A stretch of DNA of 35,742 nucleotides, from positions 1 to 35,742 of the forward strand of contig JAEEHY010000002.1 of assembly GCA_016281085.1 (NCBI GenBank), in the 5' to 3' direction. The position numbers and the translations under genes are program-made. The stretch comes from Lachnospiraceae bacterium. GTDB taxonomy: Bacteria > Bacillota > Clostridia > Lachnospirales > Lachnospiraceae. A model generated the notes under the pieces. The model was not told where the DNA came from and searched no databases. It was given only the letters and a program-made list of their open reading frames with translations. Every line of letters starts with the position of its first letter. Within the stretch, counting starts at the first letter, position 1. Below are positions 10,033 to 33,297 of the stretch, piece by piece.

Positions 10033-10076
10033 ACGGGGACGATGATCCGATGGTTGTTTCAGATCAGCGTCCCCGT
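10033..10076 (-). terminator. Terminator downstream of the GG-leader peptide genes
   Basis: Stem ACGGGGACG/CGTCCCCGT with additional pairing inward; minus strand continues TTGTTTTATG. Confidence 0.75.
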
Positions 10077-10098: not shown

Positions 10099-10350
10099 TC
10101 AGCACCTGCCTGTGTCAAAATTGCCGCCAGATACTATCTTGTTTTCCCCGACACTTCTGACCGCGGCATTATCTATGAGCTTTGCTTTGTATTTCTTTTT
10201 TTCATCATATTGTGTAGTCTTTGCACTGCCGGGATCGCCCCTTTGTACAAGATCCACCCCTAACGTAGCTACTCCACCCAGCTTTAATCCTCCGTTAACC
10301 TCATTAAGTAATGCATCATCAAGTAATTTGTCTTTACTGTTCTCCAACAT
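10099..10350 (-). CDS. Double-glycine leader peptide (bacteriocin/RiPP-like precursor), core of about 62 aa with a single C-terminal Cys
   Basis: Leader MLENSKDKLLDDALLNEVNGG; strong RBS GGGAGG; adjacent to a C39 exporter; leader alignable with that of 10379..10651. Confidence 0.8.
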   Translation of the reverse strand: MLENSKDKLLDDALLNEVNGGLKLGGVATLGVDLVQRGDPGSAKTTQYDEKKKYKAKLIDNAAVRSVGENKIVSGGNFDTGRC

Positions 10351-10378: not shown

Positions 10379-10651
10379 TTATACTGCCCTGCCCGTTACA
10401 TTGACGGAACCGGGATTGCTTGCGACTGTCGATTTCTTCACCTTGGATGCCGTCAGATTTTCCTCTGAACAGTCCTCGTTGCAGCTCGGACATACGATCG
10501 GCTTAACCTTGGTATTGGCCATGAAGACCTCACCGCAAGTCCTGCACTTGACTCTTCTGAGATCCTCATTTCCGTTCTTCATTTTTATGCCACCGTTTAC
10601 TTCCGTAAGTAATTCATCATCCAATGCAAGATGTTCTATATTCTTATTCAT
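10379..10651 (-). CDS. Double-glycine leader peptide with a Cys4 zinc-ribbon-like core
   Basis: Leader MNKNIEHLALDDELLTEVNGG, then CRTCGEVFMANTKVKPIVCPSCNEDC; RBS CAGGAGGT. Confidence 0.82.
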   Translation of the reverse strand: MNKNIEHLALDDELLTEVNGGIKMKNGNEDLRRVKCRTCGEVFMANTKVKPIVCPSCNEDCSEENLTASKVKKSTVASNPGSVNVTGRAV

Positions 10652-10684
10652 AAAAGTAACCTCCTGTTTTCGCCTTTCTGTATA

Positions 10685-10730: not shown

Positions 10731-12902
10731 TTACATCTGCCGCCTGACAAGATTTGCAAAGAATCCGTTCATGGCTATCAGCTCGTCAAAAGTACCGTCC
10801 TCAATTATCTTCCCACCGTCCAGTACGATTATCCTGTCGCAGTGACGGATCGTTGACAGCCTGTGGGCAATAACTATTCTCGTACATTTCAGCGAATCAA
10901 GAGACTCGGATACCTTCTTCTGTGTAATATTATCAAGAGCCGAAGTCGCCTCATCAAACATAAGTATCCTGGGCTTGGGTGCGATGGCTCTTGCTATCAT
11001 GAGCCTCTGCTTCTGGCCGCCGGAAATACCGCCCTGGCCCTCTGAGATGATGGTATTCATTCCCATGGGCATATTTCTTATATCATCTGCCATACCCGCC
11101 ATTTCAGCGGCTTCCCAGGCTTCATCCAGAGTAGTGAGCGGTGCGGATATAGTGATATTACTGTAAATATCCCCCTGAAAAAGATTACTGCTCTGCATCA
11201 CCACGCCGATATGCCTTCGCAGTGACTTAAGATCAATTCCCGAGATATCCTTACCGTCATAATATACAGCACCTTTCTGCGGCTTCTCGAAGCCAAGCAG
11301 AATACGCATGAGTGTTGATTTACCGCAGCCTGTCTTTCCGACTATTGCCACATATTGTCCGGGCCTGATCTTAAGGGATATATTATCCAGCACGTTCGGC
11401 ATATTGTCACTGTATCTGAAGGATATGTTATTAAGCTCTATCCCGCCCTTCAAATTGGTTACCACGGGTCTGGTTCCGTCAACCTCGGGGGCGGCATCGA
11501 ATACAGGCTTAATAAGCTTGTGTACCGGACGTATCTGAGCAACTATGACCGCGATCGAGGAAAGAGCCACAAAGGCACCGCTCATCAGACCGTAAGCACC
11601 CGTAAATGCCATATAATCCGGCATACTTACCCCGCTCTTAACGGCATTGTAATACATAACTATAGTACCGATAAGAGTCACTGCCAGAACAAATGTCGTA
11701 CTGAGCCTTAAAAAGAGCGGCGGACTGTACATATACCTTGCTGCCTTGGAATACTGATCACTCCACTTGGCAAATGCCCTCTTCTCGGCGCCCGCATTTT
11801 TCAGCTTGGCCACACCGCTTATCAGAGCATATACCATACCGTCTTCCTTGTTTGACTCACGAAGCAGATTCTCTGTTATGTTCATCTGCCACAGTGCCGT
11901 TACCGTAGTTATGATGAAAGTAGCGAAGGTGATCGCCAGGGCAGGTGCGGCAAGGGCAGGTGCATATTTGACAACCTGAAATATATAAACAAGCGAGAAT
12001 ATCGCTGTAAGTCCTATCGAAAGAATTGAATTAAATACAGTATTGCATATCGCATTAACATTTCCTATACGTCCGGCGAGCTCACCCGCACTGTAATCCC
12101 TGAAGAAATTAACCGGAAGTGATAATACCCTCATCATCATCGCACTTTCCACTTCAAGGCTTATCCTGGTCGTTACATTCGTATTAATAAGGGTCTTGAT
12201 CACTTCGAGCAGGTTTAATGCCAGTCCCGCACATGTGAAGGTTATCATCGCTGCGATAAGTAATATGGTACTCGAGTCATCAAGTACCGTTCCATACAGA
12301 TATTTCGTTATCATGGGGGCTGCCATTCCGATAAGTACCGAGCACAACGACGCTGCGATGATCAGAACGTAATCTCTTGGTCTTAATGATCCCATCATGA
12401 ACATAAAAACATCTTTAAAATCTATGCTGCGAAGCGGAAAAGGCCTGTAGAAGCAAATGGCATTTTCATCGAGTTCTTTTTCAACTTGGGCCGTTATCCT
12501 TTTAGACTCTCCGGTTGTATAATCCCTGTAATAATATCCACCGGCCACACCGGGAATGATAGCGACGATCCCGCCTTCCTTCTTACTGCCGAGCATGGCT
12601 CCGACAGCATCCCTGTGCCAGCCCTCAGTGAGCTTCACCGGCCTTCTCATCAGACCTGACGGTCTTAGGAGGTACTCAAGCGCATCATCCATATCCGTGA
12701 TCTCTTCCGGAATCTCCTGAGCCTTAACGTGATAATATTTGAGTATGTCCTCCATGGCTTCACCGGACAGCTTGCCATCTTTGGACATTCCCACCGCTAT
12801 CTTCTCCGTGCTGACTATGTTCACCATTCTTGCAACGGCATCGGTAAACATTTCGTCATCACTTCTGGTTCTTAATTTAATCTGTTCTTCAAACCAACTC
12901 AT
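10731..12902 (-). CDS. ABC transporter, permease+ATPase, NHLM-type bacteriocin exporter without peptidase
   Basis: Long N-terminal non-C39 domain, TMD, Walker A GKTGCGKST, signature ISGGQKQRLMIARAI, Walker B RILMFDEATSALD. Confidence 0.85.
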   Translation of the reverse strand: MSWFEEQIKLRTRSDDEMFTDAVARMVNIVSTEKIAVGMSKDGKLSGEAMEDILKYYHVKAQEIPEEITDMDDALEYLLRPSGLMRRPVKLTEGWHRDAVGAMLGSKKEGGIVAIIPGVAGGYYYRDYTTGESKRITAQVEKELDENAICFYRPFPLRSIDFKDVFMFMMGSLRPRDYVLIIAASLCSVLIGMAAPMITKYLYGTVLDDSSTILLIAAMITFTCAGLALNLLEVIKTLINTNVTTRISLEVESAMMMRVLSLPVNFFRDYSAGELAGRIGNVNAICNTVFNSILSIGLTAIFSLVYIFQVVKYAPALAAPALAITFATFIITTVTALWQMNITENLLRESNKEDGMVYALISGVAKLKNAGAEKRAFAKWSDQYSKAARYMYSPPLFLRLSTTFVLAVTLIGTIVMYYNAVKSGVSMPDYMAFTGAYGLMSGAFVALSSIAVIVAQIRPVHKLIKPVFDAAPEVDGTRPVVTNLKGGIELNNISFRYSDNMPNVLDNISLKIRPGQYVAIVGKTGCGKSTLMRILLGFEKPQKGAVYYDGKDISGIDLKSLRRHIGVVMQSSNLFQGDIYSNITISAPLTTLDEAWEAAEMAGMADDIRNMPMGMNTIISEGQGGISGGQKQRLMIARAIAPKPRILMFDEATSALDNITQKKVSESLDSLKCTRIVIAHRLSTIRHCDRIIVLDGGKIIEDGTFDELIAMNGFFANLVRRQM

Positions 12903-12921: not shown

Positions 12922-15132
12922 CTATTCCGACGTTATTAATTCCTCATACTTCCCATGCAGGTTGATAAGCTCTTCATGGGTCCCCCTCTCAACGACTTTT
13001 CCATTATCCATTACGATTATTTCATCACAGTCACGTATCGTCGACAGCCTGTGAGCTATGACTATACAGGTTATGCCTCTGTCGGTTATTGACTTTACCA
13101 CCTCATATTCAGTGGCTGCATCCAGTGCACTGGTGGCTTCATCCATGATGATCACGGTTGGATCCTGTGCAAGTACCCTTGCTATCTCGATCCTCTGGCG
13201 CTGTCCTCCCGAAAAATCACGCCCGCCGGCTATCATCTTGTACTTATAGCCCCCTTCGCGCTGAAGGATATCATCATGAAGACTGGCATCGCGTGCAGCC
13301 AGTATCATTTCAAAATCTTCGATGGAGCTGTCCCACATCTTGATATTGTTTGCCAGCGTATCCTCAAACAGGGTTATCTCCTGATCCACAACCGCAAGCG
13401 AACCTGTAAACACACTTCTGTTGATATCCTCCATCGGCTTGCCGTCAAACAGAACCTCGCCGCTCCACGGCTTATACAGTCCCGATATAAGCTTCGACAG
13501 TGTGGATTTACCGCAGCCCGAAGCACCGACGAAGGCTACCTTCTGTCCCGGTTCCACCTTCATTGAAAAGTTCTCTATAAGAGGTGGCGAAAGTCGTGAA
13601 TATCCGAAGGTGACATCCTTTAGTTCAACCATTCCCGAAAGCTTACTGAAGCTTACCGTATCATCCGTATCTTCCGTACTTTCCTCATGTCCGGCATCCG
13701 CTGTATCACTCTCATCATACTCAACATCAACCGGATACTCCATGACATCATCTATGCGCTCCATATCAACGCGCATTTCACGGATTATCGTACCGGTATC
13801 CGACAACGCCATGACAGGAGCCATGAACTGTGTCAGCATGGCCTGGAAGGAATAGAGCATACCAACCGTGAAATGCCCCTTCATGATAAGATACAGTCCG
13901 GTTCCCAATATCGTTGTATTAACAAAAACATTAACAACCAAAGGGATCAGACCATAATAGCTGTTAAGCTTGATCTCCTTGATGGCCTGACTGTTCACCG
14001 ATGCCTGAAATCCCGACCACTTCTCGAAAAAGCCGTTTTCCGCTCCGCTCGATTTGATAGTCTCCATCATTTCTATCCCGGAAACGGTCGCAGCTGCCAG
14101 CTTGGCAGCATCTCTCATCTGAACACGCGTTATATTGACACGCTTCGCGGAAATATACTGGCTTACAAATATGTTTATTGCCATACCGACAAGTCCTACG
14201 GCCGTGAGCATTACACTGTACTTAAGTATGACGGTAAGATAAACTATCATCATCAAAAGATCAAGAACCGTAGGAGCCAGTGTATTGATAAGCGTAGCTG
14301 CAAGTATCTCATTGTCTCTCTTTCTGATAGCGATATCCTCGGCATGACGCTGTGTAAAGAATTCAACCGGCATCCTGAGAACATGCCACATATAACGTGC
14401 ATTTGCCTTTATCGCAAGCTTACCCTGTATCCTCAGATTATATATTGCCTGCATTCCCGAAAGAACTATCTGCATAACAGCGAAGACTATCAGAAATATG
14501 AAAAACGGCACCAGCCAGTCCCTGTTTCTTCCGGCAAGAAATCTGTCGATAAAGATCTTGGAAAAGACAGGATTAATGACTCCCATTATCGCACATATAA
14601 GTGAAACAATAACGGTAAACGTCATAACGGCGCCTGTTCCCTTAAGCTGCTTCCCTGCAAATTCGAATATACTCTTCTTCTTTCCTCCGCGTTCAAACCC
14701 CTCGTCCGGCTCAAAGAATATGCACACACCGGTAAAGCCCTTGTCGAAATCCTCCATAGACAGCTCAACAACACCTCTTGCCGGGTCATTGATAACCGCC
14801 TTATCCTTCTTAAATCCGTTAAGAACAACAAAATGATTGAACTCCCAGAAGATGATACAGGGGAACTCTCCTTCTTTCTTCAGATCCTCAATTTCAAACT
14901 TGTATCCCTGCGCCTGCAGACCGTAGTTCCTCGCAGCCATCATGACATTCTTTGCATTGGAACCGTCGCGCGACACTCCGCAGTCAACCCTGACCCTTTC
15001 AAGCGGTACCCACTTTCCATAGTAGGCAAGTATCATTGCAAGACATGCCGCACCGCACTCAAGCGCTTCCAATTGTAATATCACCGGCACCCTGACAACT
15101 TTGCCCGTCACCGGCTTCCTGATCTCAGACAT
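12922..15132 (-). CDS. Peptidase-containing ABC transporter (C39 peptidase + TMD + ATPase), NHLM-type exporter
   Basis: C39 residues in QLEALECGAACLAMILAYYG, FNHFVVLNGF and INDPARG; Walker A GASGCGKST; signature FSGGQRQRIEIARVL. Confidence 0.92.
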   Translation of the reverse strand: MSEIRKPVTGKVVRVPVILQLEALECGAACLAMILAYYGKWVPLERVRVDCGVSRDGSNAKNVMMAARNYGLQAQGYKFEIEDLKKEGEFPCIIFWEFNHFVVLNGFKKDKAVINDPARGVVELSMEDFDKGFTGVCIFFEPDEGFERGGKKKSIFEFAGKQLKGTGAVMTFTVIVSLICAIMGVINPVFSKIFIDRFLAGRNRDWLVPFFIFLIVFAVMQIVLSGMQAIYNLRIQGKLAIKANARYMWHVLRMPVEFFTQRHAEDIAIRKRDNEILAATLINTLAPTVLDLLMMIVYLTVILKYSVMLTAVGLVGMAINIFVSQYISAKRVNITRVQMRDAAKLAAATVSGIEMMETIKSSGAENGFFEKWSGFQASVNSQAIKEIKLNSYYGLIPLVVNVFVNTTILGTGLYLIMKGHFTVGMLYSFQAMLTQFMAPVMALSDTGTIIREMRVDMERIDDVMEYPVDVEYDESDTADAGHEESTEDTDDTVSFSKLSGMVELKDVTFGYSRLSPPLIENFSMKVEPGQKVAFVGASGCGKSTLSKLISGLYKPWSGEVLFDGKPMEDINRSVFTGSLAVVDQEITLFEDTLANNIKMWDSSIEDFEMILAARDASLHDDILQREGGYKYKMIAGGRDFSGGQRQRIEIARVLAQDPTVIIMDEATSALDAATEYEVVKSITDRGITCIVIAHRLSTIRDCDEIIVMDNGKVVERGTHEELINLHGKYEELITSE

Positions 15133-15213: not shown

Positions 15214-15453
15214 CTACTCACCGACAAGAAGGGATACCGGCGCTATCTCAACCGTACTGACCTTCCCCGAAGCATCCGTGACCGTATCCTCGATCCGTCC
15301 CTTAAAGCCCCAGATTATCGCACCTATCAATACCAGTAAGATACATCCGAGCACAAGCCACATGCTTATTCCTGCAATCTTCATGTAGTCATCAATCTTC
15401 TCCGGCGAAGATATTCTCTCTATGCTTTTTTCTCTGAAAATTGATTTATCCAT
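15214..15453 (-). CDS. Truncated HlyD/NHLM secretion-protein-like small membrane protein (79 aa)
   Basis: MDKSIFREKSIERISSPEKIDDYMKIAGISMWLVLGCILLVLIGAIIWGFKGRIEDTV resembles the N-terminal anchor of NHLM bacteriocin secretion proteins; ORF stops shortly after the TM. Confidence 0.65.
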   Translation of the reverse strand: MDKSIFREKSIERISSPEKIDDYMKIAGISMWLVLGCILLVLIGAIIWGFKGRIEDTVTDASGKVSTVEIAPVSLLVGE

Positions 15454-15462
15454 TAGCTTTAC

Positions 15463-17265
15463 CTATTCTGCATTCTTTCCGTCTTTTCCGTAGTAATTGA
15501 ACATCAGCATGGTTATATCATCAAACTGAGGAGCATCTCCTACAAATGCATCAATATCCTTTCTGATATTTGCAAGAGCCTCCTTAAGATCTACATCCTT
15601 ATTTGCATTAAGAGCATTTATCATCCTGTCATTACCGTACAGCTCATTGTTTGAGTTTGTAGCCTCAGCAACTCCGTCGGTATATACGAAAAGTGAATCG
15701 CCGGGATTAAGCTCGAACTCATGCTGCTTGAATGGAATACCCTCCATTGTTGCGACCGCCGGAGAATGCTTGTAGATCGACAGCTCGAAATCTCCTCCCT
15801 TTCTCTTTATCGCAGGATGCTCATGTCCGGCATTGGCTGCCCAGCCCTTTCCTGTACTGATCTCTATGATAGCAAGCCATACGGTTACAAACAGCTCGGC
15901 ATCATTTCCCTCGCATAATGTATCATTAACCTCGGACAGAATATCTCCCGGAAGACCTCCCTGCTGGGTCCTTGTCTTAATAAGAGTCTTGGCGATAACC
16001 ATAAACAGTGCAGCGGGAACGCCCTTACCGGATACGTCGGCCATAACAAGAGCTATGTGATCATCATCCACCATAAAGAAGTCATAGAAGTCTCCACCGA
16101 CCTCCTTGGCAGGATTCATGGTAGCATACAGATCAAATTCTTCCCTGTTAGGGAATGCCGGGAATACTCTTGGCAGCATGTCTGCCTGTATCTGTGTTGC
16201 GACATTAAGCTCGGCTCCGATACGTTCCTTCTCTGCCGTAACGTGCTGGAGGTTTGTCATGTAATCCTTAAGTTCGACAATCATATCGGCAAACTGATCG
16301 GACAGGCTTCTGATCTCATCATTGCCTTTTTCTTTTAAACGTATTTCGTCAGCAACATGTACATCCTTGCTGTCAGAATACTTTTCAACACTTCCCTCAA
16401 GATTGATTAAACGATAAAGGAATTTTTTCTTGATCAAAGCGATCATAATAAGAATACCGATTGCAAGCACCAAAAAAGCACCGATAAACTGTAAATATAC
16501 TCTGTTGAGTATAGCACTGCTTACTGCATCTACATTTATCTCCGCACATGCAAGACCAATCTTTACGCCATTAACATATACAGGTGTATAATATGCGTAT
16601 GAATATCCGTACTCATTATTAAAGACATCAAAGCCATTTGGCTCAGTCCCTGTATGCCATGCTTCCCACATCCTTACATACTTGGCCGGATCCTCTTCCA
16701 CAACATCGGCCAATAACAGATATGTCTTTCCGTCAACCTCCTTTTCTTCTCGAACGGCATCTATCATATAGCACATATTGGGCTCTTCGGTAGGAAATAT
16801 AAAATATGTGTATGCAAGTCCGAATGAATCCCTTGCTTCTTCGAAGACTGTAAGCCAGTACTCAAAGGTATATTCTGCGTAAACCAGCTTAATATCCTCA
16901 TCCAGATCATCAAAATGTATATCCCTTCCATATATCTTATCGTGATATCTTTCTTTGAAGAGCTTATCAAATTCTTCCCTCTTCAGATCGTACTCTCCAT
17001 CGTAATCAATCGGAATAAGCATTTCATCACTATGCTCTATCATATAGTCCTTGAGCTCTGCGAAGTCATTACCTTCTCTCTCTATCAGGGATGCAATATA
17101 CTTGTTTATATCTCTGAGGTTGTCTTCGCACTGCTTATGATAAGAAGAATTCTGTACAACATAGGTGTAAACCGTATTCATGATCAGACTTATTAATGCA
17201 TAGATCGCAAACATAATCACAAAAAGATTAATCAGACTTTTTCTTTTTACAATTTTATTATCCAT
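15463..17265 (-). CDS. Membrane sensor SpoIIE/PP2C-type serine phosphatase (extracytoplasmic sensor + HAMP + PP2C_SpoIIE)
   Basis: EKERIGAELNVATQIQADMLPRVFPAFP..., AKEVGGDFYDFFMVDDDHIALVMADVSGKGVPAALFM, PQFDDITMLMFNY. Confidence 0.9.
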   Translation of the reverse strand: MDNKIVKRKSLINLFVIMFAIYALISLIMNTVYTYVVQNSSYHKQCEDNLRDINKYIASLIEREGNDFAELKDYMIEHSDEMLIPIDYDGEYDLKREEFDKLFKERYHDKIYGRDIHFDDLDEDIKLVYAEYTFEYWLTVFEEARDSFGLAYTYFIFPTEEPNMCYMIDAVREEKEVDGKTYLLLADVVEEDPAKYVRMWEAWHTGTEPNGFDVFNNEYGYSYAYYTPVYVNGVKIGLACAEINVDAVSSAILNRVYLQFIGAFLVLAIGILIMIALIKKKFLYRLINLEGSVEKYSDSKDVHVADEIRLKEKGNDEIRSLSDQFADMIVELKDYMTNLQHVTAEKERIGAELNVATQIQADMLPRVFPAFPNREEFDLYATMNPAKEVGGDFYDFFMVDDDHIALVMADVSGKGVPAALFMVIAKTLIKTRTQQGGLPGDILSEVNDTLCEGNDAELFVTVWLAIIEISTGKGWAANAGHEHPAIKRKGGDFELSIYKHSPAVATMEGIPFKQHEFELNPGDSLFVYTDGVAEATNSNNELYGNDRMINALNANKDVDLKEALANIRKDIDAFVGDAPQFDDITMLMFNYYGKDGKNAE

Positions 17266-17305: not shown

Positions 17306-20300
17306 TTATTTCAAAATTTCATTTTTTACAATCTCGGAAATATATATTTTGTATTTTGATAGGAAAACAAGATGATCATTATCATTTCCAAAAATACCAT
17401 AGGACTTCCCTCTGCTTTGCGATCTTTCAAGCCAGGGATCTGTCTCCAGCAATGCATACCCTGAATCAAACGATAGTTCTTCTGTCAGTATTATGCTGTC
17501 AATCTCTGCATTAACCTTACCTTTTATCCGTAATGCGTTACATACATTTGAAGAATATACAAGATATGTTTCATACAGAGACTTTAGCAAAGTCTCTGCT
17601 GCATCTTCACCCATCAAGGTCTTCAGTTCGTTCTTTAAATATACGACATCCTCTGTTTCTTCAGAAAATGTCTCATCGTCCCTGTCAACAGAACTGCCTG
17701 TAAATATTGCAACAGCTGTCTTTAACCTTTCAAATCTTTCTGTATCATTATCCATAGTACCTTCCTGCGAAGGCGGGACACACTCGAGCATTATTATCTT
17801 CCCAATTGTAAAACCCTGTTTTTCAAGAGACATTGCAACAGAGTGAGCTGCGTTGCCTCCCTGCGAGTAACCGACAAGGATATCACCGTCTTTAAATACT
17901 TCGGATACACAGTCCGTATATTTCTTAACTGTATCTTCCCACAGATTTTCACTGAAAACATCATACTCCGACAATTCTTCAAACGACATCCTGTCAAATT
18001 TATTATATTTATCATCTGACAATCCAAATATCCTGCCTTCATGACCTATCTCTTCAATCACGGGCATATAACATAAGGACATTCCTCCTGAAGGAGGTAT
18101 GCAGAAAATCGTGGGTCTGTCTTCATTACCTTCCTTAAGAAGCATTATTCCACTCCCCTTCCTCTCCCTTCCATTCCATTCGTCCAACATCCTTTCTCCC
18201 AGCAAAAGAGGCGTAGGGGCTGCTGCAACATCAGTAACGCTTATATTGTACCTGCCCAATCCCGACACAAGCTTCATAAGATCAATGGAGCTTCCTCCCA
18301 GTTCAAAGAAGGAATCATTCCTGCCCACATGCTCAACGCCGAGTATCTTTTCAAACAGCTTTGCAGCAAACTGTTCAAAATATCCCACCGGAGCAGTATA
18401 GCCTGCCTGCTCCGTCATAACCGGGAGCGACTTTATATCAAGCTTTCCGCTTGAAGTAAGCGGCAGTTCTTTCATGTTGATTATAAAAGCAGGTACCATA
18501 TATGAAGGCAGATTCTTATATAGATAGTTGCGAAGCTGACCCATATCGATCTCATCTCCCGCAACAACATAAGCTGCAAGATATGATTCTCTCTTACCTT
18601 CCTTACGGCTTATTACAGCCACTTCACTGACCTTATCATATTTTCTGATACAATTCTCAATCTCCCCTGTTTCTATTCGATATCCTCTTATTTTTATCTG
18701 ATCGTCTTTTCTTCCCAGGAAGCGGAGTTCTTCATCTAATCCAAAGGCTCCTATATCACCCGTATGGTATATCAATCCATCCTCATACGGATTATCCGTA
18801 AACATCAGCCTGTTCATTTCATCACGGTTATGATAACCCCTTGCAAGACCTGTTCCTCCGATACAAATCTCACCCTTCTGTCCTATCCCACACAGTTCAT
18901 TTCCCTGCATTATAAATACGCGTTTACCTTTATACGGCATACCTATCGGAACGACCGTTTTATCATCTCCCGTGTATTTATGCACTGTTGCATTCACGCA
19001 TCCTTCTGTAGGACCGTAGTCATTTACGAGCATATCTGTATGCGCCGACCAGGCAGCGAATGTCTCGACATTTGCTGCATCTCCTCCCACACATACCAGA
19101 CGAAGATCATCAAACTGCTCCGGATCAAGTGCCTGTAAAAGGGCATTTGTCGTTATAATTATACGAACTCCCTTATCTTTACAGAACTTCGCTGTTTCTT
19201 CCGCGCTCCTGAGCATCTTTACAGGTATTGTACATACCGTTCCGCCTGAAGCAAGTGTAACGAATATTTCCTGAACCGATGCATCAAAAACATAATTGGC
19301 CGCCTGAAGAACAGCCGTATCAAACGGACCGTAATACTCAATATTTGAACGCACCATCTGTACTAGCGCACCATGTTCCACCTCAACACCTTTCGGCTCA
19401 CCGGCAGTACCTGATGTATATATCATATACGCAAGTCTGTTTCCCGTTAATCCATGCTTATTCCATGGATATTCCATATTTACTTCTGTGACTTTTTGTG
19501 CAACGGTTTTTTCATCCAATACGTCAATAACCTTAGTTCCGAGTACGGCGAACAAATCATCTCTTTCATCCGTTCCTGCGTTTACATTTCTGATCACGAC
19601 CTTTGCTCCGCAGTCGTTCATTATATATCTTATCCTCTCATCAGGATATGAAGGATCCAACGGAACATAAGCTGCCCCTGCAATAAGAACAGCAAGCATT
19701 GCCGTCATCATCGGGGCGCCTCTGTCTGTATACAGTGCGATAAACCGTTCCTCTCCGTAGCCTATCCTTTCCGCCAACAGACAGGACTGCTCCCACAATT
19801 CATGATAGCTCAATACACGATCGGCTTCTGCCACGGCAACCGCATCAGGAGTCTGTACCACTTTTTCATAGATCATGTCAAGTACTGTCTGTTTTCCGAA
19901 ATCGGCCCTTACTCCTGCAACCTGACCGAGCATGGTTCTGCGCTCATCTGCTGGAATCCTGCCAAGAGCCGACATCTTAATATCCCTGTCGGATATAACC
20001 TGATCTATGATATTTATGTATCTTCCTGCAAGCAGATCTATATACCGCCTGTCATAGCTCCCCGTATCATACTGGATGGAAATTGTAAAGCCGTTTCCCT
20101 CTTCCACACTGACGGATATTGGATAATCAACTTCCTCATGAAGCATATCCAATACGTAGCTTCCACCATCCGTATCACTTTCCGGATAATTCTCATAAAC
20201 ATAGAGCGATCTGATAAGATCAGATGCCTTCACTCCGTCTGATCCTATTTTGTCAAGAGGCGCATCCAGTACACTCTGCATAGTGTAGTAATCCTCCTGT

Positions 20301-23300
20301 CGCTGTCTGAAAATCTCGGAAACATACTTATTATCATCCAGCCTTATCCTTACCGGAACAGTATTTATAAACATACCTACGGCATTTATTATACCCTCCG
20401 GTCCGTTTTCACGTCCGGAAACGGTTTCACCGAAGATCACCTCTTTTGTATTGTTCTCAAATCCGAGCAGTATTCCCCATATACATCCAAAAAAGCATCC
20501 TGTGGTGATACGATACTTCTCTGCAAATCTTTGTATACATTCCTTTTTCTGCCCGCTTATCGGGAATGTTACAAAACCGGCCGCATTACCGGCATTCTCC
20601 GTACTGTTTACGTGCATAAGGGATGTACCTTCATCTATCCCGTCAAGATACTTATTCCATGCTCCGATCTTCTCGTGAACACTTATATTTCCTCTGCTCC
20701 TTAAGAAGTCAGCATACGAACAATCTCTATGTCTTTCTTTGCCAGCCATGGCAAACAATGCACTGCCGCTTACCCCCCTGAGCAGCATCTGATAATAATT
20801 TACAAGGGTATCTATGAGTATTGGAAAACTCCACCCATCCAATATACAGTGATGCGTGGTAATGAGTAATTCCTTATCCCATACCGTATTCCGCCCCGGC
20901 TCTTCCGTAAACGTCACCCGTAACATCGGATCTTTTGCAGGGTTGATCCCCCTCCTTAGATCATCAGCGATCACCTCATCCATATCTTTTCCCGGGATCC
21001 GTACTATTTCGGGTTTTATCGCCCCCTCCTTAAGTACTATCTGAACCGGTTCCGAAAGACCGTTGTACATTATTCTTATCCGCAATGCATCATAACGTAT
21101 AAACAACGCTCTAAGTGCAGTTCTGAAATTTATTAGACTCCATTCCCCCTTGATGGTAAGCCTGTCCTGAAGAAGATAAGCACCACTGTCAGGCTCTGCC
21201 AGATGTCTGTACAGCATTCCCTGCTGAAGCGGAGTCAATGAACTTATAACCTCTATATCCCATGGTGAATATTTTTTCGTTACAATATCCCATTCATCCT
21301 TCGAGAGCAAACGATCCGCACACAGATCCGAAGGAGTATAAATCCGTTTCGTATCCATGACGGTATCCGCAAGTGTTCTCAGGCTGCTTTCATAATTCTC
21401 GATAAGACTGTCTATCTTCTTTTTATCAAATACCAGATCATATATGCACTCGATCTTAAGCCCCTGTTTCGTGTCACGTATATTAACCGAAATGGTCTTC
21501 GGATCAACATTTAACGGGCTGATCTCTGTGCCGGAGCTTTCTTCGCTCCACTGTATGACAGAGTTCTGCTCTTCCTTTCTGCCTCCCAGATAGTTAAATA
21601 CAAGTCCGCCCATATCCGTGAGGTCATCATACATAAGACCATAACCGATCCCGGAATTGGGAATTGCAGCCAACACTTCCTTCATTTCCGTGATCTGATC
21701 ATCAATCCCGGTGAATGCACCGATCAATATCGGATATACAGCCGTAAACCACCCGACGGTACGATCGGTCTTCGGCAAGATCCGGGCTTCTGCCCTGCCA
21801 TGGCTCTCCATCTGAAACAGTAAAATATTGCTTCCGTCTGTGTCAAATACCGTCTTCGCTAGGACGGCTGCAAGCAGTGCATCCACTCTTGCTCCGTATC
21901 GTTTGTCCGAAAGTTCAAACAGCCTGTCTGTTGCCTCTCTGTCCACATATCCCGATGCTATACCATAGCCATGTTCGGAAATGCCGTCGGTACGCATATA
22001 CATTTCTTTCCATTTATTTAACTTCTTTTTTTCAGTTTCAATCCTGTTATGTACTTCGGTCCAATATTCCCCTTCGGCTGAAAAAGCATCCGAATCACGA
22101 TATTTCCATAAACTCTCGGACCATTCACCAAAGGATACCGTACCTTTTTTCAACAGACGCAGGGCCTTTTCGTATTTCTTTTCATATGCACGGGATGATC
22201 TTGCATGTTCATACAGTATATTAATATCTTCAAATATTATGTCCCATGACACTTCATCAATTACATAATGGTGGAATGTAAGGAAAAGACGTGACTTCAC
22301 CGTATCTTCAAACACTGCGGCTCCAAAGACAATACCGTTATCGGGATCCAGGGATGAGTGTATACTGTTCATCATCTCTTCCCTTTCTTTTTCGGAAAGT
22401 CCTTTGTAAACACTCAGTTCAAACGGCGGCATCTCATCTCTTCTCCTGATTCCGGGTCTGCCGTCATCCTTAAGATACATTCTGAGCATACCATGACAGT
22501 ATATAAGACCGTTAATTGCCCATTCCAGAGCTTTTGTGTCAGTTACTCCGTTTATAATAAATACCGCACTCTGATTGTAATATGACGGCTCAGGCATATC
22601 GGCTGAAACAAACATACGCATTACCGGGGTAGGGCGTACTGTTTCGTATTCAAGGTAACTTATGTTTCCGGTCCTCTTAACTACAGCTGCGAGTCCCTTG
22701 ATCGTATGACTCTTAAGAATGGTAGCGGCATCAACACTGTAACCTCTTTCTCTAAGCAGGGACACAATACGTATTGCCTTGATAGAATCCCCTCCGAGAG
22801 ACAGGAAATTATCCGCAACGCTGATATTACTTATTCCCAGTATTTTCTCAAAAGCACGACAGCAGTCTCTTTCCTCCCTCGTTACAGGTGCCTGATAATC
22901 CTGTGCCTGAATTTGTATGCTTACCGCCTCTGAAGGATCCGGAAGAAGGTTTCTGTTGATTTTTCCGTTTACGGTAAGGACAAACTCCTTAACCGGAATA
23001 AATACTGAAGGAACCATATAGGCCGGTATTTTCTTTTCGAGTTCCTCTCTTATAGTGAGTATATCCGCGTCACTGTCTTTTTCGGGTATAAAATATCCAC
23101 ACAGGAGCTTCTCTCCATTATTATCCTTAAGTACTACTACGGCATTTCTGACAGCACTAAATGAACGGAGTGCAGCTTCCACTTCGCCCAGTTCTATCCT
23201 GTATCCTCTTATCTTTACCTGATCGTCCATGCGGTTCATAAACTCAATATTACCGTCAGGCATCATCCTGGCCAGATCACCGCTTCTGTACATCCTCCCG

Positions 23301-26300
23301 TTTCCGAAAGGATCGTTACCGAATTTCTCTGCCGTCAATTCCGGTCTGTTAAAATATCCTCTTGCAACCTGCGTGCCAGCGATACATAATTCTCCGGGAA
23401 CACCAAAACCGCACAGCTTATCTTTATTCATAATATAAATGCTGACTCCGGGAGCAGGTCGCCCTATCGGAACATTCTCCCTGGCTGAAAATGCTTTGTT
23501 TCCGATCACACCATTTTGAGCAAACACGTAACTTGATGCATTAACCGTAGTCTCTGTAGGTCCGTAAGTATTAAATACTGTTCTTCCCGCGCTCCACATT
23601 TCCAACAGGGATCTGTCGGGTGCTTCACCGCCAACATCCAATATCCTGAGACTCTTAAATTTCTCGGGTGAAAGTAGTCTTAAATATCCCGGTGTAAGCG
23701 AAGCGACCGTCACTCCCCTTGTCTCACAATAGCTCACAAGTGCCTCAGGATCCTTGTTAAGCTCCTGTGTAATAAGACAGAGCGTTCCACCTATTGTCAG
23801 GATATGAAAAATATCCCATACAGACTGATCAAATACGTAATTGGCAAACTGCAGGACTGTGTCATCAGAGTTAATGCCATAAACCTGTCCATATGCATCA
23901 AGCATTCCTGACAGCTGTTTATGCTCCACTACGACGCCTTTAGGCTCTCCTGTGGTCCCGGACGTATAGATCATATATGCGATCTGCTGCATTGTTATCG
24001 CAGGTAACTTTGTATTCTCATAAGCTTCTTTTGTACCGTTTTTCTGTCCGCTTCCCACAGGCTGTACATCAATGACCTTAATCTTCATCCTGTCAGTCTG
24101 TTTCTTTATACCTGCAGGCAATTCACAACCGCATATAATCAGAGCATCGGGACGACAGTCTTTAAGAACATACCGTATCCTTTCCTCGGGATATTCAGGT
24201 GATACAGGCACATATCCTGCTCCCGAACGCAATATTCCGAGTATCGATGATATCATTCCCGTACTTCGCTCCGCAATAAGCATAACCCGACGCTCTTTGT
24301 TTCCATCTTCTGCGACATCAACGTCATGGAGCCTGTTGCCGGCTTCGCTGTCTTCATATGCATTTACAAGATCTACGGCAATTCTCCCGGATCTGTTCCA
24401 CAAATCAGCATAACTGACTGTTTCATCTTTAAATAGCAGCGCCGTCTTATCCGGTGTCTCTTTTACCCTGTTTTCAATACGTGTAATGACGGTATCCTGA
24501 ATAAAGGGACATTCATCGTCCTTTGCAAGTCTCAGGAGCTCCCGAACCTCTTTATCATCCGTCATTGATATCATATCAACATTCTGTTCGGGACCTTCTA
24601 TACAATTCTCGATCAGATTTACATAATGTTCGCTCATCATATGAACCGATTCTTCAGTATACAGCCCGGTATCATATTCAAAGAAATAATTGTAGCCTTC
24701 TTCATCCCTGCCTGTTTCAAGAGTAAGATCATACATGGGCATCTCATCTTCAGGGAACGTTATCCATGCTTTCTTACCATCGATATCCTGCAGCTTTGTT
24801 TCAAAATCTCTCATAGTAAAGAGCGAATCAAACAAAAGATGGTCATGAGATGTACGGACGTATCCTCCCAGTGACGCAAATCCTTCAGCTATATCCTCGA
24901 GGGCAATACTCTTGAACCTGTGGCAATCCAGTATTCTGTTCTTTATCTGTTCAAGCAGCTCAAGGAAGGTTATACCCTCACTTATATCCACAATTACGGG
25001 AATTGTACTTACAAACATTCCCTGCATTCTTTCAGTAAGCTGTTCACTGCGCCCATCCATTACCGTGCCTGTTATGAATCTGCGCTGTCCCGAGTACTTA
25101 TATAAAAGCAGCAGATAGGAAGTCATAAGGAACATATACGGAGTTACTCCGTTGCCCTTACAGAATTCATCCAGCCTTTCAGAGAGCTGCCTGCCCGCAT
25201 TTCCGTATTCATGACCTGCCTGTTTCCTCTCCGATGCACTATATATACCATCCTGTACAAGCTGAAGCTCATGAATGTCATCATACTGTGCAAGTAATTT
25301 CTTCCAGAATTCAAGTCCTTTATCATATGTACCCGATGTTCTCTGTTTTCTCTCGAAGGCTGCATATTCTTTTTGATGGATTCTGTTTTCTTCAGGCTCT
25401 GACCCGTTGTAACAGGAAACGAATTCCTGTGCAAACATAGAGATTCCGACACCATCATTTATAATATGATGCCAATACAGCGTCAGACTCCTGTTATCAT
25501 ACTTCCACCTGAACAGCGGTGCCTTATCCAGCTTAAATCCAGAAGGCTTTTTGTCAGTGCGGGATTCATCCACTGCTCTTTTTATCCATGCTTCATCCGC
25601 TTCATTTATCTTCTGCACAAGACCTTCTTCAGTCATATGGAAACCGGTTCTGAGACTCTCGTGAGCTTCAAACAGACGGGCCAGCACCATCTTTATGCTG
25701 TCATCATCAAGGTCCTTCTCAGTATGTATCACGGCACTCAAAAGATATGTCGGATCATCATCCTCCAGAAGATTCTGTGCAGTATAAATCCTCTCCTGTG
25801 CCATACTGACATCATAGCTCTCACTTTCGGGCAGAGCCTCATCACTCATCATCTCTTCCGGGACATTGTTTCCGTCCTTTTTCATTTCACATATCTTACT
25901 TCCCAATGCCGATACGACGGAATTCTCCATAACATCTCTTATGCTCAGTCTGACCGACAACTCTTTTTCTATGCGGTATATCAGTCCCGCAATAAGAATC
26001 GAATTACCTCCGATGAGCATAAAATCATCATTACGTCCTATATGATCAGTCTTAAGAATTTCCGCATAAATCCGGCTGAGTATCTTTTCAGTATCATTCA
26101 CCGGTTCTTCATAGACTGCTTTATACATTTCAAAGCTTGGAATGGGAAGCTTTTTCTGATCTACCTTGCCATTTGTGTTGAGAGGTATTTCATTTATTCG
26201 AACAAAAAAAGACGGACACATATACGAAGGCTTATATGTAAGCACGAATTCTTCGAGAAGTTTGCTGTCAAGCTCTTTATCTGCCAAATAATATGCGGCA

Positions 26301-27646
26301 ATTACTCTTTGCCCTCCAACTTCAGGCGTTGTTATAACCACCTCATTGATTTCTTCATATGTCCTGAGTAGTGCCTCTATTTCGGCCGGTTCTATCCTGA
26401 CACCTCGTATTTTGACCTGTCTGTCAGCTCTACCGAAATATTCAAATATCCCATCACTGTTCCTGAGCACCAGATCGCCGGAATGATACATCCGCTCGTA
26501 ACCGGGCTTATCCGAGAAAGGATTTGCCGTAAAGGACTTTTCTGTAAGCTCAGGTCTGTTAAGATATCCATATGCAACATGAGGTCCTGCAATACACAAT
26601 TCTCCAACCGTATTATCCGCAGCCTCAAGACCGTTTTCATCTACGACATACAGTTCTACTTCATCAACCGCTCTTCCTATAGGTACCTTCTCCGGATAAT
26701 CCTTCTCCACCGCAAAAATAGTAGTATACAGAGTGCATTCGGCAGGGCCGTAGTCATTGTGTAATATATAACCCTTTGGAGGAACAACAGATATTAATGC
26801 TTCTCCTCCAACAGTCAAATGTCTGAGGGAATGATTGTCAATAGTCATTGCGAACTGACGTCCCAACTGGGTAGTCATTGTAAGATGTGTGATCCTGTTA
26901 TTCTCCAGAAATGAATTCAGGGTCGAAAGATCGGTTCTCAGTTCTTCGGGTATAATATAAACAGAAGCTCCCGCAGTAAGCGGTAACAGGAGCTCAACTA
27001 TCGCAAGATCGAAAACATAGCTTGCATGCTGTCCCATCCTGCAATCGGAATTAACATCATAATATTTGAGATGCCATCTGCATGCGGAATAAATATTTCC
27101 GTGAGTCAGAATTATCCCTTTGGGAACGCCGGTGGTTCCGGATGTATACAATATTACAAAACGGTCATCGCCGCTCATATCTTCCCATATATCTTCCGCC
27201 GGCTCGGGCAACGAGGCTATATCCTCCATGTATAGTAATTCCGGCTTCGCTTTTTCAAAATCCGAACAATCTATTAGGTACTCAAGTTCCCTTGAAACTA
27301 TAACAACAGATGCATCCGCATCTTCTATCATGAACCTTATCCTATCCACAGGATGAGAAGCATCAAGCGGCTGATAAGCTCCTCCGGCCCTCAGTACACC
27401 CAATGCAGCTATAGACATATACTCACATCGCGGCACCAAAACAGGAACCACATCTCCGTGTTTTATACCATGATCCTTTAAATAAGCTGCCAATTTTCCG
27501 CTTATGTTGTCCAGTTCAGAATATGTATAACGATTATTCTTATATATCAAAGCCGACCGATCACCAAATTCTCTTATTGAATTCCTGATCCACGGAATAA
27601 TTGATTCTTTCTCATTTTGACAATATACTTCCCGTGACATTATCAT
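17306..27646 (-). CDS. Three-module nonribosomal peptide synthetase A1-PCP1-C1-A2-PCP2-E-C2-A3-PCP3-TE
   Basis: A-domain cores LYTSGTTGVPKG, IYTSGTTGEPKG, IYTSGTAGEPKG; PCP cores IGGNSI, LGGDSI, LGGSSI; C motifs HHIINDG and HHCILDGWS; E motifs HHYVIDEVSW, RTVGWFTAVYP and FNYLGG; TE GYSQGGNAAH. Confidence 0.95.
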   Translation of the reverse strand: MIMSREVYCQNEKESIIPWIRNSIREFGDRSALIYKNNRYTYSELDNISGKLAAYLKDHGIKHGDVVPVLVPRCEYMSIAALGVLRAGGAYQPLDASHPVDRIRFMIEDADASVVIVSRELEYLIDCSDFEKAKPELLYMEDIASLPEPAEDIWEDMSGDDRFVILYTSGTTGVPKGIILTHGNIYSACRWHLKYYDVNSDCRMGQHASYVFDLAIVELLLPLTAGASVYIIPEELRTDLSTLNSFLENNRITHLTMTTQLGRQFAMTIDNHSLRHLTVGGEALISVVPPKGYILHNDYGPAECTLYTTIFAVEKDYPEKVPIGRAVDEVELYVVDENGLEAADNTVGELCIAGPHVAYGYLNRPELTEKSFTANPFSDKPGYERMYHSGDLVLRNSDGIFEYFGRADRQVKIRGVRIEPAEIEALLRTYEEINEVVITTPEVGGQRVIAAYYLADKELDSKLLEEFVLTYKPSYMCPSFFVRINEIPLNTNGKVDQKKLPIPSFEMYKAVYEEPVNDTEKILSRIYAEILKTDHIGRNDDFMLIGGNSILIAGLIYRIEKELSVRLSIRDVMENSVVSALGSKICEMKKDGNNVPEEMMSDEALPESESYDVSMAQERIYTAQNLLEDDDPTYLLSAVIHTEKDLDDDSIKMVLARLFEAHESLRTGFHMTEEGLVQKINEADEAWIKRAVDESRTDKKPSGFKLDKAPLFRWKYDNRSLTLYWHHIINDGVGISMFAQEFVSCYNGSEPEENRIHQKEYAAFERKQRTSGTYDKGLEFWKKLLAQYDDIHELQLVQDGIYSASERKQAGHEYGNAGRQLSERLDEFCKGNGVTPYMFLMTSYLLLLYKYSGQRRFITGTVMDGRSEQLTERMQGMFVSTIPVIVDISEGITFLELLEQIKNRILDCHRFKSIALEDIAEGFASLGGYVRTSHDHLLFDSLFTMRDFETKLQDIDGKKAWITFPEDEMPMYDLTLETGRDEEGYNYFFEYDTGLYTEESVHMMSEHYVNLIENCIEGPEQNVDMISMTDDKEVRELLRLAKDDECPFIQDTVITRIENRVKETPDKTALLFKDETVSYADLWNRSGRIAVDLVNAYEDSEAGNRLHDVDVAEDGNKERRVMLIAERSTGMISSILGILRSGAGYVPVSPEYPEERIRYVLKDCRPDALIICGCELPAGIKKQTDRMKIKVIDVQPVGSGQKNGTKEAYENTKLPAITMQQIAYMIYTSGTTGEPKGVVVEHKQLSGMLDAYGQVYGINSDDTVLQFANYVFDQSVWDIFHILTIGGTLCLITQELNKDPEALVSYCETRGVTVASLTPGYLRLLSPEKFKSLRILDVGGEAPDRSLLEMWSAGRTVFNTYGPTETTVNASSYVFAQNGVIGNKAFSARENVPIGRPAPGVSIYIMNKDKLCGFGVPGELCIAGTQVARGYFNRPELTAEKFGNDPFGNGRMYRSGDLARMMPDGNIEFMNRMDDQVKIRGYRIELGEVEAALRSFSAVRNAVVVLKDNNGEKLLCGYFIPEKDSDADILTIREELEKKIPAYMVPSVFIPVKEFVLTVNGKINRNLLPDPSEAVSIQIQAQDYQAPVTREERDCCRAFEKILGISNISVADNFLSLGGDSIKAIRIVSLLRERGYSVDAATILKSHTIKGLAAVVKRTGNISYLEYETVRPTPVMRMFVSADMPEPSYYNQSAVFIINGVTDTKALEWAINGLIYCHGMLRMYLKDDGRPGIRRRDEMPPFELSVYKGLSEKEREEMMNSIHSSLDPDNGIVFGAAVFEDTVKSRLFLTFHHYVIDEVSWDIIFEDINILYEHARSSRAYEKKYEKALRLLKKGTVSFGEWSESLWKYRDSDAFSAEGEYWTEVHNRIETEKKKLNKWKEMYMRTDGISEHGYGIASGYVDREATDRLFELSDKRYGARVDALLAAVLAKTVFDTDGSNILLFQMESHGRAEARILPKTDRTVGWFTAVYPILIGAFTGIDDQITEMKEVLAAIPNSGIGYGLMYDDLTDMGGLVFNYLGGRKEEQNSVIQWSEESSGTEISPLNVDPKTISVNIRDTKQGLKIECIYDLVFDKKKIDSLIENYESSLRTLADTVMDTKRIYTPSDLCADRLLSKDEWDIVTKKYSPWDIEVISSLTPLQQGMLYRHLAEPDSGAYLLQDRLTIKGEWSLINFRTALRALFIRYDALRIRIMYNGLSEPVQIVLKEGAIKPEIVRIPGKDMDEVIADDLRRGINPAKDPMLRVTFTEEPGRNTVWDKELLITTHHCILDGWSFPILIDTLVNYYQMLLRGVSGSALFAMAGKERHRDCSYADFLRSRGNISVHEKIGAWNKYLDGIDEGTSLMHVNSTENAGNAAGFVTFPISGQKKECIQRFAEKYRITTGCFFGCIWGILLGFENNTKEVIFGETVSGRENGPEGIINAVGMFINTVPVRIRLDDNKYVSEIFRQRQEDYYTMQSVLDAPLDKIGSDGVKASDLIRSLYVYENYPESDTDGGSYVLDMLHEEVDYPISVSVEEGNGFTISIQYDTGSYDRRYIDLLAGRYINIIDQVISDRDIKMSALGRIPADERRTMLGQVAGVRADFGKQTVLDMIYEKVVQTPDAVAVAEADRVLSYHELWEQSCLLAERIGYGEERFIALYTDRGAPMMTAMLAVLIAGAAYVPLDPSYPDERIRYIMNDCGAKVVIRNVNAGTDERDDLFAVLGTKVIDVLDEKTVAQKVTEVNMEYPWNKHGLTGNRLAYMIYTSGTAGEPKGVEVEHGALVQMVRSNIEYYGPFDTAVLQAANYVFDASVQEIFVTLASGGTVCTIPVKMLRSAEETAKFCKDKGVRIIITTNALLQALDPEQFDDLRLVCVGGDAANVETFAAWSAHTDMLVNDYGPTEGCVNATVHKYTGDDKTVVPIGMPYKGKRVFIMQGNELCGIGQKGEICIGGTGLARGYHNRDEMNRLMFTDNPYEDGLIYHTGDIGAFGLDEELRFLGRKDDQIKIRGYRIETGEIENCIRKYDKVSEVAVISRKEGKRESYLAAYVVAGDEIDMGQLRNYLYKNLPSYMVPAFIINMKELPLTSSGKLDIKSLPVMTEQAGYTAPVGYFEQFAAKLFEKILGVEHVGRNDSFFELGGSSIDLMKLVSGLGRYNISVTDVAAAPTPLLLGERMLDEWNGRERKGSGIMLLKEGNEDRPTIFCIPPSGGMSLCYMPVIEEIGHEGRIFGLSDDKYNKFDRMSFEELSEYDVFSENLWEDTVKKYTDCVSEVFKDGDILVGYSQGGNAAHSVAMSLEKQGFTIGKIIMLECVPPSQEGTMDNDTERFERLKTAVAIFTGSSVDRDDETFSEETEDVVYLKNELKTLMGEDAAETLLKSLYETYLVYSSNVCNALRIKGKVNAEIDSIILTEELSFDSGYALLETDPWLERSQSRGKSYGIFGNDNDHLVFLSKYKIYISEIVKNEILK

Positions 27647-31148: not shown

Positions 31149-31178
31149 TAAAGAGTTCGACTCATGTCAAACTCTTTA
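31149..31178 (-). terminator. Terminator or attenuator hairpin at the end of the upstream phosphatase gene
   Basis: TAAAGAGTTcGACtcatGTCaAACTCTTTA, followed on the minus strand by TTATTGTTA. Confidence 0.6.
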
Positions 31179-33297
31179 TTCTCAATGCCAGCATCGTCAG
31201 ATCGTCAAATTGTGGGGCATTTTTGACAAATGCATCTACATTTTTTCTCACCTTGCTCAGCAGTTCCTCCGGATTTTCCCTGTAATTCCTCCTAAGCACT
31301 CTCTCAAGTCTTTCCGTTGTATACAATTCCTCTCTGCTGTTTGTCGCCTCGGGAACACCGTCTGTATACAGGAATATCATATCATTTTGCTTGAGCTGTA
31401 TTTCATTCTCAGGATAAACAGTATTATCCATGGCGGCAAGCGGCAGCTTTTTCTTTGACGGCATGATCATCTCCACGCTTCCGTCCTCATGCATAATGTA
31501 CGGATTCTCATGTCCTGCATCGGCATATCTGAGCCTGCCGAGCTCAAGGTCCACAATACCCAGCCAGGCAGTGACAAACATTTCCTGGCTGTTACCCTCG
31601 TACAATCTTTCATTTGCCATCCTGAGCACATCTCCTGCGCCAACACCTGTCATGGCGATATTTTTGATAAGGGTTTTTGCAACCACCATAAACAACGCAG
31701 CAGGAACTCCCTTTCCCGAAACATCAGCCATCACTATTGCAAGATTATTGTCATCAACAAAAAAGAAATCATAGAAATCTCCACCGACCTCCTTGGCAGG
31801 AGTCATCCTTGCATAGATATCAATCTCCTCACGGTCCGGAAACGGCGGGAAAACACTTGGAAGCATGGCTGCCTGAATTCGTGCCGCAACGGAAAGTTCG
31901 GCTCCTATCCTCTCCTTCTCTGCCGTGATCCTGGTTATATCATCAATATAACTCTTCATGCGTTCAGTCATCGATCCAAATGACTCGGCAAGCGTCTGAA
32001 CCTCATCTCCCGTATCCATTTCCCATGAAAAGTCAAGATTGTCTCCCTCGATCTTCCTTACACTTCTCGTAAGCTTCGTTATAGGCTCCGTCAGCACATG
32101 AGACAGTCTCACCGATGCAAAATAAGATATTATTGCAATCAGAAGGAAAAGGGTACAGAGTATTGCCAATGAAGCAAAAACGGAGGTATGCACGAATTCC
32201 CTCTGATGCTCACTGCTTCTGTCAAGCGCACCCAAAAGATCTTCCGTAGGCTCCATAACCTCGTTTGCAGGAAGTACCGCAAGATAGGTCCAGCCTACAG
32301 TCTCCATCGGAGAATAACCGACGAAATAATCACCGTCATCAAGTGTGATCCTCACCACATCGGTTTTACCTTCAAGTGCAGCTCCGACTATCCCGGCGAG
32401 CTGAACATTACCGCTTTTTCTAAGATCATGTTCCGGATCTAAGCTGACCTTCAGTTCACCATCCTCGCTGCCGGAGAACAAAACCTGTCCCTCACCATTG
32501 ATTATACAGGCGTAACCGCCTCTTCCTATCTCATAACGGTCTACCTTTGATCTCACGGAATCAAGTTTTAATCCCGCACCGGCAACTCCCTTAAACACTC
32601 CGTTGATATATACGGGAGAAGCACAGGAGATAGCAGGTTCACCGCTGTCAGCATCTTCTATGATGTCGGTAAACACAGTTTTGCCACTTTCGACCGCAAG
32701 CTTGTACCACGGCCTTTCCCTGCCCTCAAAACAGAGTGATCCGTCATCCTCTTCAAGATTATATTCGGATACTTTTTCCGTACAAAGGAATATTCCGGAT
32801 TCCGTCTGGAAAAAAATAGCCGACATCGAAGCGTCTGATTTGAAAAAAGCCTTCATCACGCCCTGCATATTGGCAATAAGAGCAAGCTCCTGCTGTATCT
32901 TCTCGGAAGCCGGATCAACACCATCCCCGTATGCCGCATATGTGACCACTTTCCCCATATCACGTTCGTAGTACGTTTCAAGAACTGCATCTCCGTATCT
33001 GTCAGGCGATAAATATATGTCGGCCGCATTATCGGTTATTGTATTAACAGCCCTGAAGAAATCCGCGAAATCCTCATCGGCTTCATACGCACGGCTCGTA
33101 GCAGACTCAAGCAGAAATTCCATCGCCTGTGTGCTCATGGATTCCTCCGATATGGCTTCGATCTTTTCGCCTGTCTGTTTATTGCCGTCATTGATACGTC
33201 TCTGGACGATGATGGTCTGGAACAGTATCAGCAAACATACAATTACCAGTATTCCGTCCGAAACAAACAAAATTGTACGCAGTATCTTCTTTCTCAA
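31162..33297 (-). CDS. dCache-HAMP-SpoIIE/PP2C serine phosphatase
   Basis: dCache-like extracellular region ([49 protein letters not shown]), HAMP, [64 protein letters not shown]. Confidence 0.92.
   Translation of the reverse strand: [711 protein letters not shown]

Follow-up and report, generated by a model that had tools for sequence, protein, structure and literature searches.

A peptide gene in a 35,742-nucleotide stretch of Lachnospiraceae DNA (the window, meaning the whole stretch that was analysed) raises the question of what a zinc-ribbon-like core is doing behind a double-glycine (GG) leader and next to a C39 exporter. Both the zinc ribbon and the Cys2His2 finger are considered intracellular folds. 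We consider it probable, with appreciable room for doubt, that this peptide, P0001, belongs to a family of microproteins that are processed by C39, exported, and kept in their small fold by a zinc staple, and we infer the cleavage, export, zinc binding and role of P0001 itself.

The P0001 locus

P0001 is read on the minus strand from 10651 down to 10379 and translates as MNKNIEHLALDDELLTEVNGG|IKMKNGNEDLRRVKCRTCGEVFMANTKVKPIVCPSCNEDCSEENLTASKVKKSTVASNPGSVNVTGRAV (leader|core). The gene and its surroundings contain the following features.

10033..10076, minus strand: terminator-like hairpin at the end of the two-peptide unit (-32.5 kcal/mol, z = -6.1)
10099..10350, minus strand: second GG-leader peptide, P0002, 83 aa, without Cys pairs, its core ending KIVSGGNFDTGRC
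10379..10651, minus strand: P0001, predicted GG-leader zinc-ribbon peptide, 90 aa (ORF translation and homologues)
10481..10492, minus strand: putative second zinc knuckle CPSC, C54 and C57 (C54 at least 90% conserved, C57 invariant in A1)
10535..10546, minus strand: putative first zinc knuckle CRTC, C36 and C39 (sequence; invariant in A1 and A2)
10589..10651, minus strand: GG leader of P0001, MNKNIEHLALDDELLTEVNGG, 21 residues, with L-12, L-7 and V-4 (sequence; LahT/PCAT1 rules; 81 leaders compared)
10660..10665, minus strand: ribosome-binding site AGGAGG, 8 nt 5' of the P0001 ATG (sequence)
10731..12902, minus strand: NHLM export ABC permease/ATPase without peptidase (ABC2), above the TIGR03797 cut-off
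12922..15132, minus strand: NHLM export C39 peptidase/permease/ATPase (ABC1), above the TIGR03796 cut-off, its C39 domain closest to LahT147 (6mpz)
15214..15453, minus strand: mini HlyD-like protein, 79 aa, matching only the first 47 of the 421 positions of TIGR03794

The double-glycine leader, the CxxC-x14-CxxC arrangement and the fifth Cys claimed in the original prediction, which gave no strand, are all present in the minus-strand translation. The leader has the form of a GG peptide, being short, ending in GG and hydrophobic at positions -4, -7 and -12 (V, L and L), and the 69-residue core carries CRTC-x14-CPSC plus the fifth Cys, which is not conserved and is missing from L008 and L009.

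The genes run in the order HlyD-like, ABC1 (C39), ABC2, P0001 and P0002, followed by the hairpin (which a simple terminator scan missed), with a gap of 79 nt between the ABC2 and P0001 genes. ABC1 scores 923 bits against TIGR03796 (cut-off, 853) and ABC2 scores 716 bits against TIGR03797 (cut-off, 709), while the HlyD-like protein, at 30 bits, falls below the TIGR03794 cut-off of 156. Small HlyD-like proteins also precede other NHLM operons, where forms of ∼130 to 190 aa occur in place of the 79 aa found in the window, and a P0002-type peptide is a conserved partner in NHLM loci. The tandem of GG peptides in the window has no recognisable immunity gene beside it, and no RiPP maturase or modification enzyme, metal importer or immunity gene was recognised among the window genes, which include sugar-type ABC, NRPS, MFS and phosphatase genes.

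The window genome is a metagenome-assembled genome (MAG) with an estimated contamination of 7.4%; an assembly artefact is unlikely because a near-identical locus is present in G035. A 94%-identical copy of P0001 lies in the same gene order in an independent MAG, with five amino-acid differences, all close to the cleavage site, and only synonymous differences across the 3' 64 codons.

Homologues and linkage to C39 exporters

A search of the genus (37 genomes) recovered P0001 homologues down to ∼30% identity, and among those aligned, G-2, G-1, C36, C39 and C57 show no variation and C54 almost none. Leader conservation had been named as a check on the original prediction, and the GG and Cys pairs are indeed kept across a large homologue set. 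Peptides combining a GG leader with a ribbon occur in at least 31 of the 37 genomes (profile search, after which ORFs were read), and 66 distinct GG-ribbon cores were collected overall, other genera included. An ORF entered this prevalence only if its leader and core had been read as a unit; profile-only counts (35/37 in the genus, 241/397 in the family) were rejected because rubrerythrin (L020) and other ordinary intracellular zinc ribbons make up many of the matches. The ribbon peptides are mostly unlinked to any exporter, and their copies are divergent and share no common neighbour gene. What had been described as one odd peptide is genuine and belongs to a large, mostly orphan repertoire. 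At two orphan loci, a zinc-ribbon protein of 277 to 279 aa (MY[IV]CP[EG]CRS[FY]FKTGS..) stands immediately before the GG-ribbon peptide (L058, 2198-3037; L059, 10171-11004).

Where linkage to an exporter is found, it is direct. The peptide immediately follows HlyD-ABC1-ABC2 in the window, G035, G007 and G019, and in G023, where the contig begins within ABC2, it follows that gene. The complete genome G519, from another family of the class, has the same arrangement: HlyD, C39 ABC1 and ABC2 precede a pair of GG peptides whose cores each carry Cys knuckles. Encoding with a C39 ABC exporter is seen in the window and, through synteny, in these five genomes, with ABC2 alone visible in G023. Within the genus, 34 of 37 genomes have C39; outside it, C39 was detected in 5 of 7 GG-ribbon genomes versus 2 of 21 controls (Fisher p = 0.004, small sample). 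The GG-ribbon peptides L077 (G171) and L264 (G144) come from genomes without a C39 match.

The C39 domain of the window is closest to LahT147 (6mpz, E = 8e-66). The LahT protease cleaves diverse GG leaders, provided that L-7 and L-12 are unchanged and that V-4 is not replaced by an acidic residue (PMC6363468, PMC6959990), and the P0001 leader carries each LahT/PCAT1-required residue (L-12, L-7 and V-4). The native PCAT1 cargo has 66 residues (PMC6959990), so the 69-residue core of P0001 is of ordinary cargo size. The central claim of the original prediction, a cargo with a GG leader, a zinc-ribbon core and a C39 exporter beside it, is largely supported.

Several features of this system have precedent. 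Like the NHLM export clusters with NHLP/Nif11 precursors (TIGR03794/03796/03797; Haft et al. 2010, PMC2887384), it pairs the ABC1 (C39) and ABC2 families and joins hypervariable cores to a shared GG leader, with many precursors per genome. Unlike those clusters, it has a short class-II-like leader (P0001 gave no match at E ≤ 1 to the NHLP/Nif11 leader models TIGR03793 or TIGR03798), a putative zinc-ribbon core, no modification enzyme and an HlyD of only 79 aa. The Lah peptides of Lachnospiraceae C6A11 (PMC6363468, PDB 6mpz) are processed by a closely related C39 under the same V-4, L-7, L-12 and GG rules, but they come from a lanthipeptide cluster, with leaders of the Nif11 type. The PCAT1 cargo CtA, with its 24-residue leader and 66-residue cargo, is in the same size class, and the available part of its description mentions no ribbon cargo (PMC6959990). 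C39/NHLM-exported GG peptides are already known; what appears to be new is a putative metal-stapled cargo.

Zinc, disulfides and other readings of the core

Sequence and model together suggest that the core of P0001 is a zinc-binding ribbon. Structure prediction, another check proposed at the outset, yields a β-hairpin ribbon with a pLDDT of ∼86 over residues 31 to 60, a disordered leader and tail, and both CxxC knuckles placed on the predicted hairpin. The tightest local Foldseek matches to this model are S27-type ribbons (1.3 to 1.7 Å over ∼31 residues); E-values for the core models were nonsignificant, as expected for a 30-residue domain. Sequence profiles gave weak matches to many zinc-ribbon families, with the best matches of P0001 falling below the Pfam and NCBIfam thresholds. 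The small zinc-ribbon proteins MJ0042, FmdB, S27e, RPB12 and YfgJ have a similar CPxC..CPxC core with a β-hairpin but differ in lacking a GG leader, and all are intracellular. Cys2His2-type fingers behind a GG leader with a longer helical N-terminus were also observed (L254, L309 and L310 in G034; L307 in G035), and one such peptide from G034 was modelled as a beta-beta-alpha finger whose structure-search neighbours are nearly all Cys2His2 fingers.

The zinc reading competes most seriously with that of a disulfide-stabilised bacteriocin, in which the four Cys would form two disulfides after export, with zinc uninvolved. Disulfides are known for class II bacteriocins, and the four Cys of P0001, arranged in two pairs, would permit them. 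Most members, however, keep a CPxC/CxxCG zinc-knuckle context (CPxC in 67 of the 120 knuckles of collected members), the profile matches, though weak, are to many zinc-ribbon families, and the host family consists of obligate anaerobes. In addition, His replaces Cys in L017/L065 (HSRC) and L080 (CSKGH); these members, like the Cys2His2 fingers of G034, preserve a zinc site and would break the second disulfide, which favours metal over disulfides and makes purely disulfide bonding, as guessed in the original prediction, unlikely. Class II/GG bacteriocins (PF10439, TIGR03949, TIGR01847) resemble the system in the weak leader matches of some members and in the tandem two-peptide arrangement, but the core here is not a membrane-active hydrophobic helix and an immunity gene was not recognised.

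Cys4 sites bind zinc tightly, and a zincophore, a secreted peptide that captures zinc and returns the metal to the cell, had also been suggested. We consider this quite improbable because no metal-uptake gene lies nearby: the window genes include no recognisable zinc importer, the vicinity of the locus offers nothing in favour of the idea, and the many divergent copies lack a common neighbour. Still less probable is that P0001 is an intracellular zinc-ribbon protein whose leader-like N-terminus is unused for export. The predominance of exporter-unlinked members and the two genomes without a C39 match (G171 and G144) would fit such a protein, but its leader residues are the same in kind as those of nonribbon GG peptides, operon linkage is direct in two bacterial families, and C39 co-occurs with the peptides. 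A cytoplasmic domain captured as secreted cargo is instead the best fit of the three guesses that had been offered.

We place lower again the idea of zinc-gated export, in which only the zinc-free unfolded precursor leaves and the peptide reports or buffers cytoplasmic zinc; this follows by inference from combining a folding metal domain with an export signal, but no pointer to metal control is found in the locus. Lowest of all, because a maturase is lacking in the window, is a RiPP precursor with Cys modified (thioether, thiazole or ranthipeptide) before export: NHLM exporters often serve modified peptides (PMC2887384), but the residues between the Cys are highly divergent here and the zinc-knuckle context is kept.

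A repertoire of exported microproteins

To avoid selecting for ribbons, a leader-only profile was searched in 10 genomes and all 85 matches were read. Metal-site cores (a Cys4 or Cys/His pattern) account for 30 of the 85 GG peptides and for 20 of the 59 at E ≤ 0.01, and each of the 10 genomes has at least one, although the ribbon fraction may be biased upwards because 26 of the 34 leaders from which the profile was built came from ribbon peptides. Strict CxxC..CxxC was observed in 24 cores, whereas 2,000 shuffles gave 0.16 on average and 3 at most; the loose metal-site pattern was observed in 30 versus 6.4 expected in shuffled cores. The leaders of ribbon and nonribbon GG peptides are alike (V/I at -4, L at -7, L/I at -12), and other GG peptides carry quite different small folds, so that the leader looks like a general microprotein export tag.

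We hypothesize that the C39 domain of the adjacent NHLM exporter would recognise the 21-residue P0001 leader through L-12, L-7 and V-4 and cut after Gly-Gly, and that the exporter pair ABC1 and ABC2, together with the mini HlyD, would carry the 69-residue core out of the cell. The core would fold round one zinc ion by means of its two CxxC knuckles, either outside the cell or already inside, although a zinc domain that has already folded may be hard to export if the exporter does not accept the apo form. Zinc would then fill the structural place that disulfides hold in bacteriocins of aerobic bacteria, an arrangement suited to an anaerobe. P0001 would belong to a large repertoire of metal-stapled GG microproteins, mostly orphan and diverging fast, whose members share a leader and therefore probably an exporter. 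In their number, divergence and scatter the cores resemble bacteriocin or signal repertoires, and the most likely role is interbacterial (bacteriocin-like or signalling) and not metal scavenging.

More tentatively, and with rather more doubt than confidence, we suggest that in anaerobic Clostridia a C39 exporter serves a genome-wide secretome of zinc-ribbon and Cys2His2 microproteins, zinc replacing disulfides as the staple. If this is true, such peptides would form a new class of effectors or signals, zinc fingers that are secreted; the cargoes of C39 exporters would be joined by ribbons and fingers behind an export leader; anaerobes would be shown to have a way of stabilising small secreted proteins that needs no disulfides; and a testable function could be given to many gut and rumen genes that lack annotation. 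Mining tools for bacteriocins would overlook such peptides because P0001 matches no curated family above its cut-off. We found no description in the open-access library searched of a cargo combining a GG leader with a zinc ribbon, zinc finger or zinc binding, and zinc goes unmentioned in a 2026 survey of rumen bacteriocins.

The surroundings of the NHLM operon also contain recurrent neighbours. An NRPS with three adenylation and three condensation domains lies upstream of the operon (window 17306-27646) and adjoins it in G007 and G019 as well; an obligate partnership was rejected, as G035 has the exporter and both peptides with no NRPS match nearby. Two SpoIIE-type phosphatases (15463-17265 and 31162-33297) flank the NRPS/NHLM block, and several further NHLM operons in the genus also have SpoIIE genes nearby. 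The window further contains a GA-cis RNA (Rfam RF02987, 5119-5201, minus strand, 36.5 bits, above cut-off), and a plasmid search returned no match.

Other cargo types were seen behind the GG leader. One peptide carries a PepSY domain above the Pfam cut-off (L296, G000:C108:1234-1293). An unnamed family without Cys, with the core ..GxDPxxPWEVLDxxxGxVLxRF.. (L179, 14136-14435; L200, 5609-5872; L210, 5533-5823), often adjoins NHLM operons, and a second unnamed family has the core GNVTFTDKTGxxGxFxxxxWxxLxxxWxYTGNPEYY.. (L286, L249, L253 and L316).
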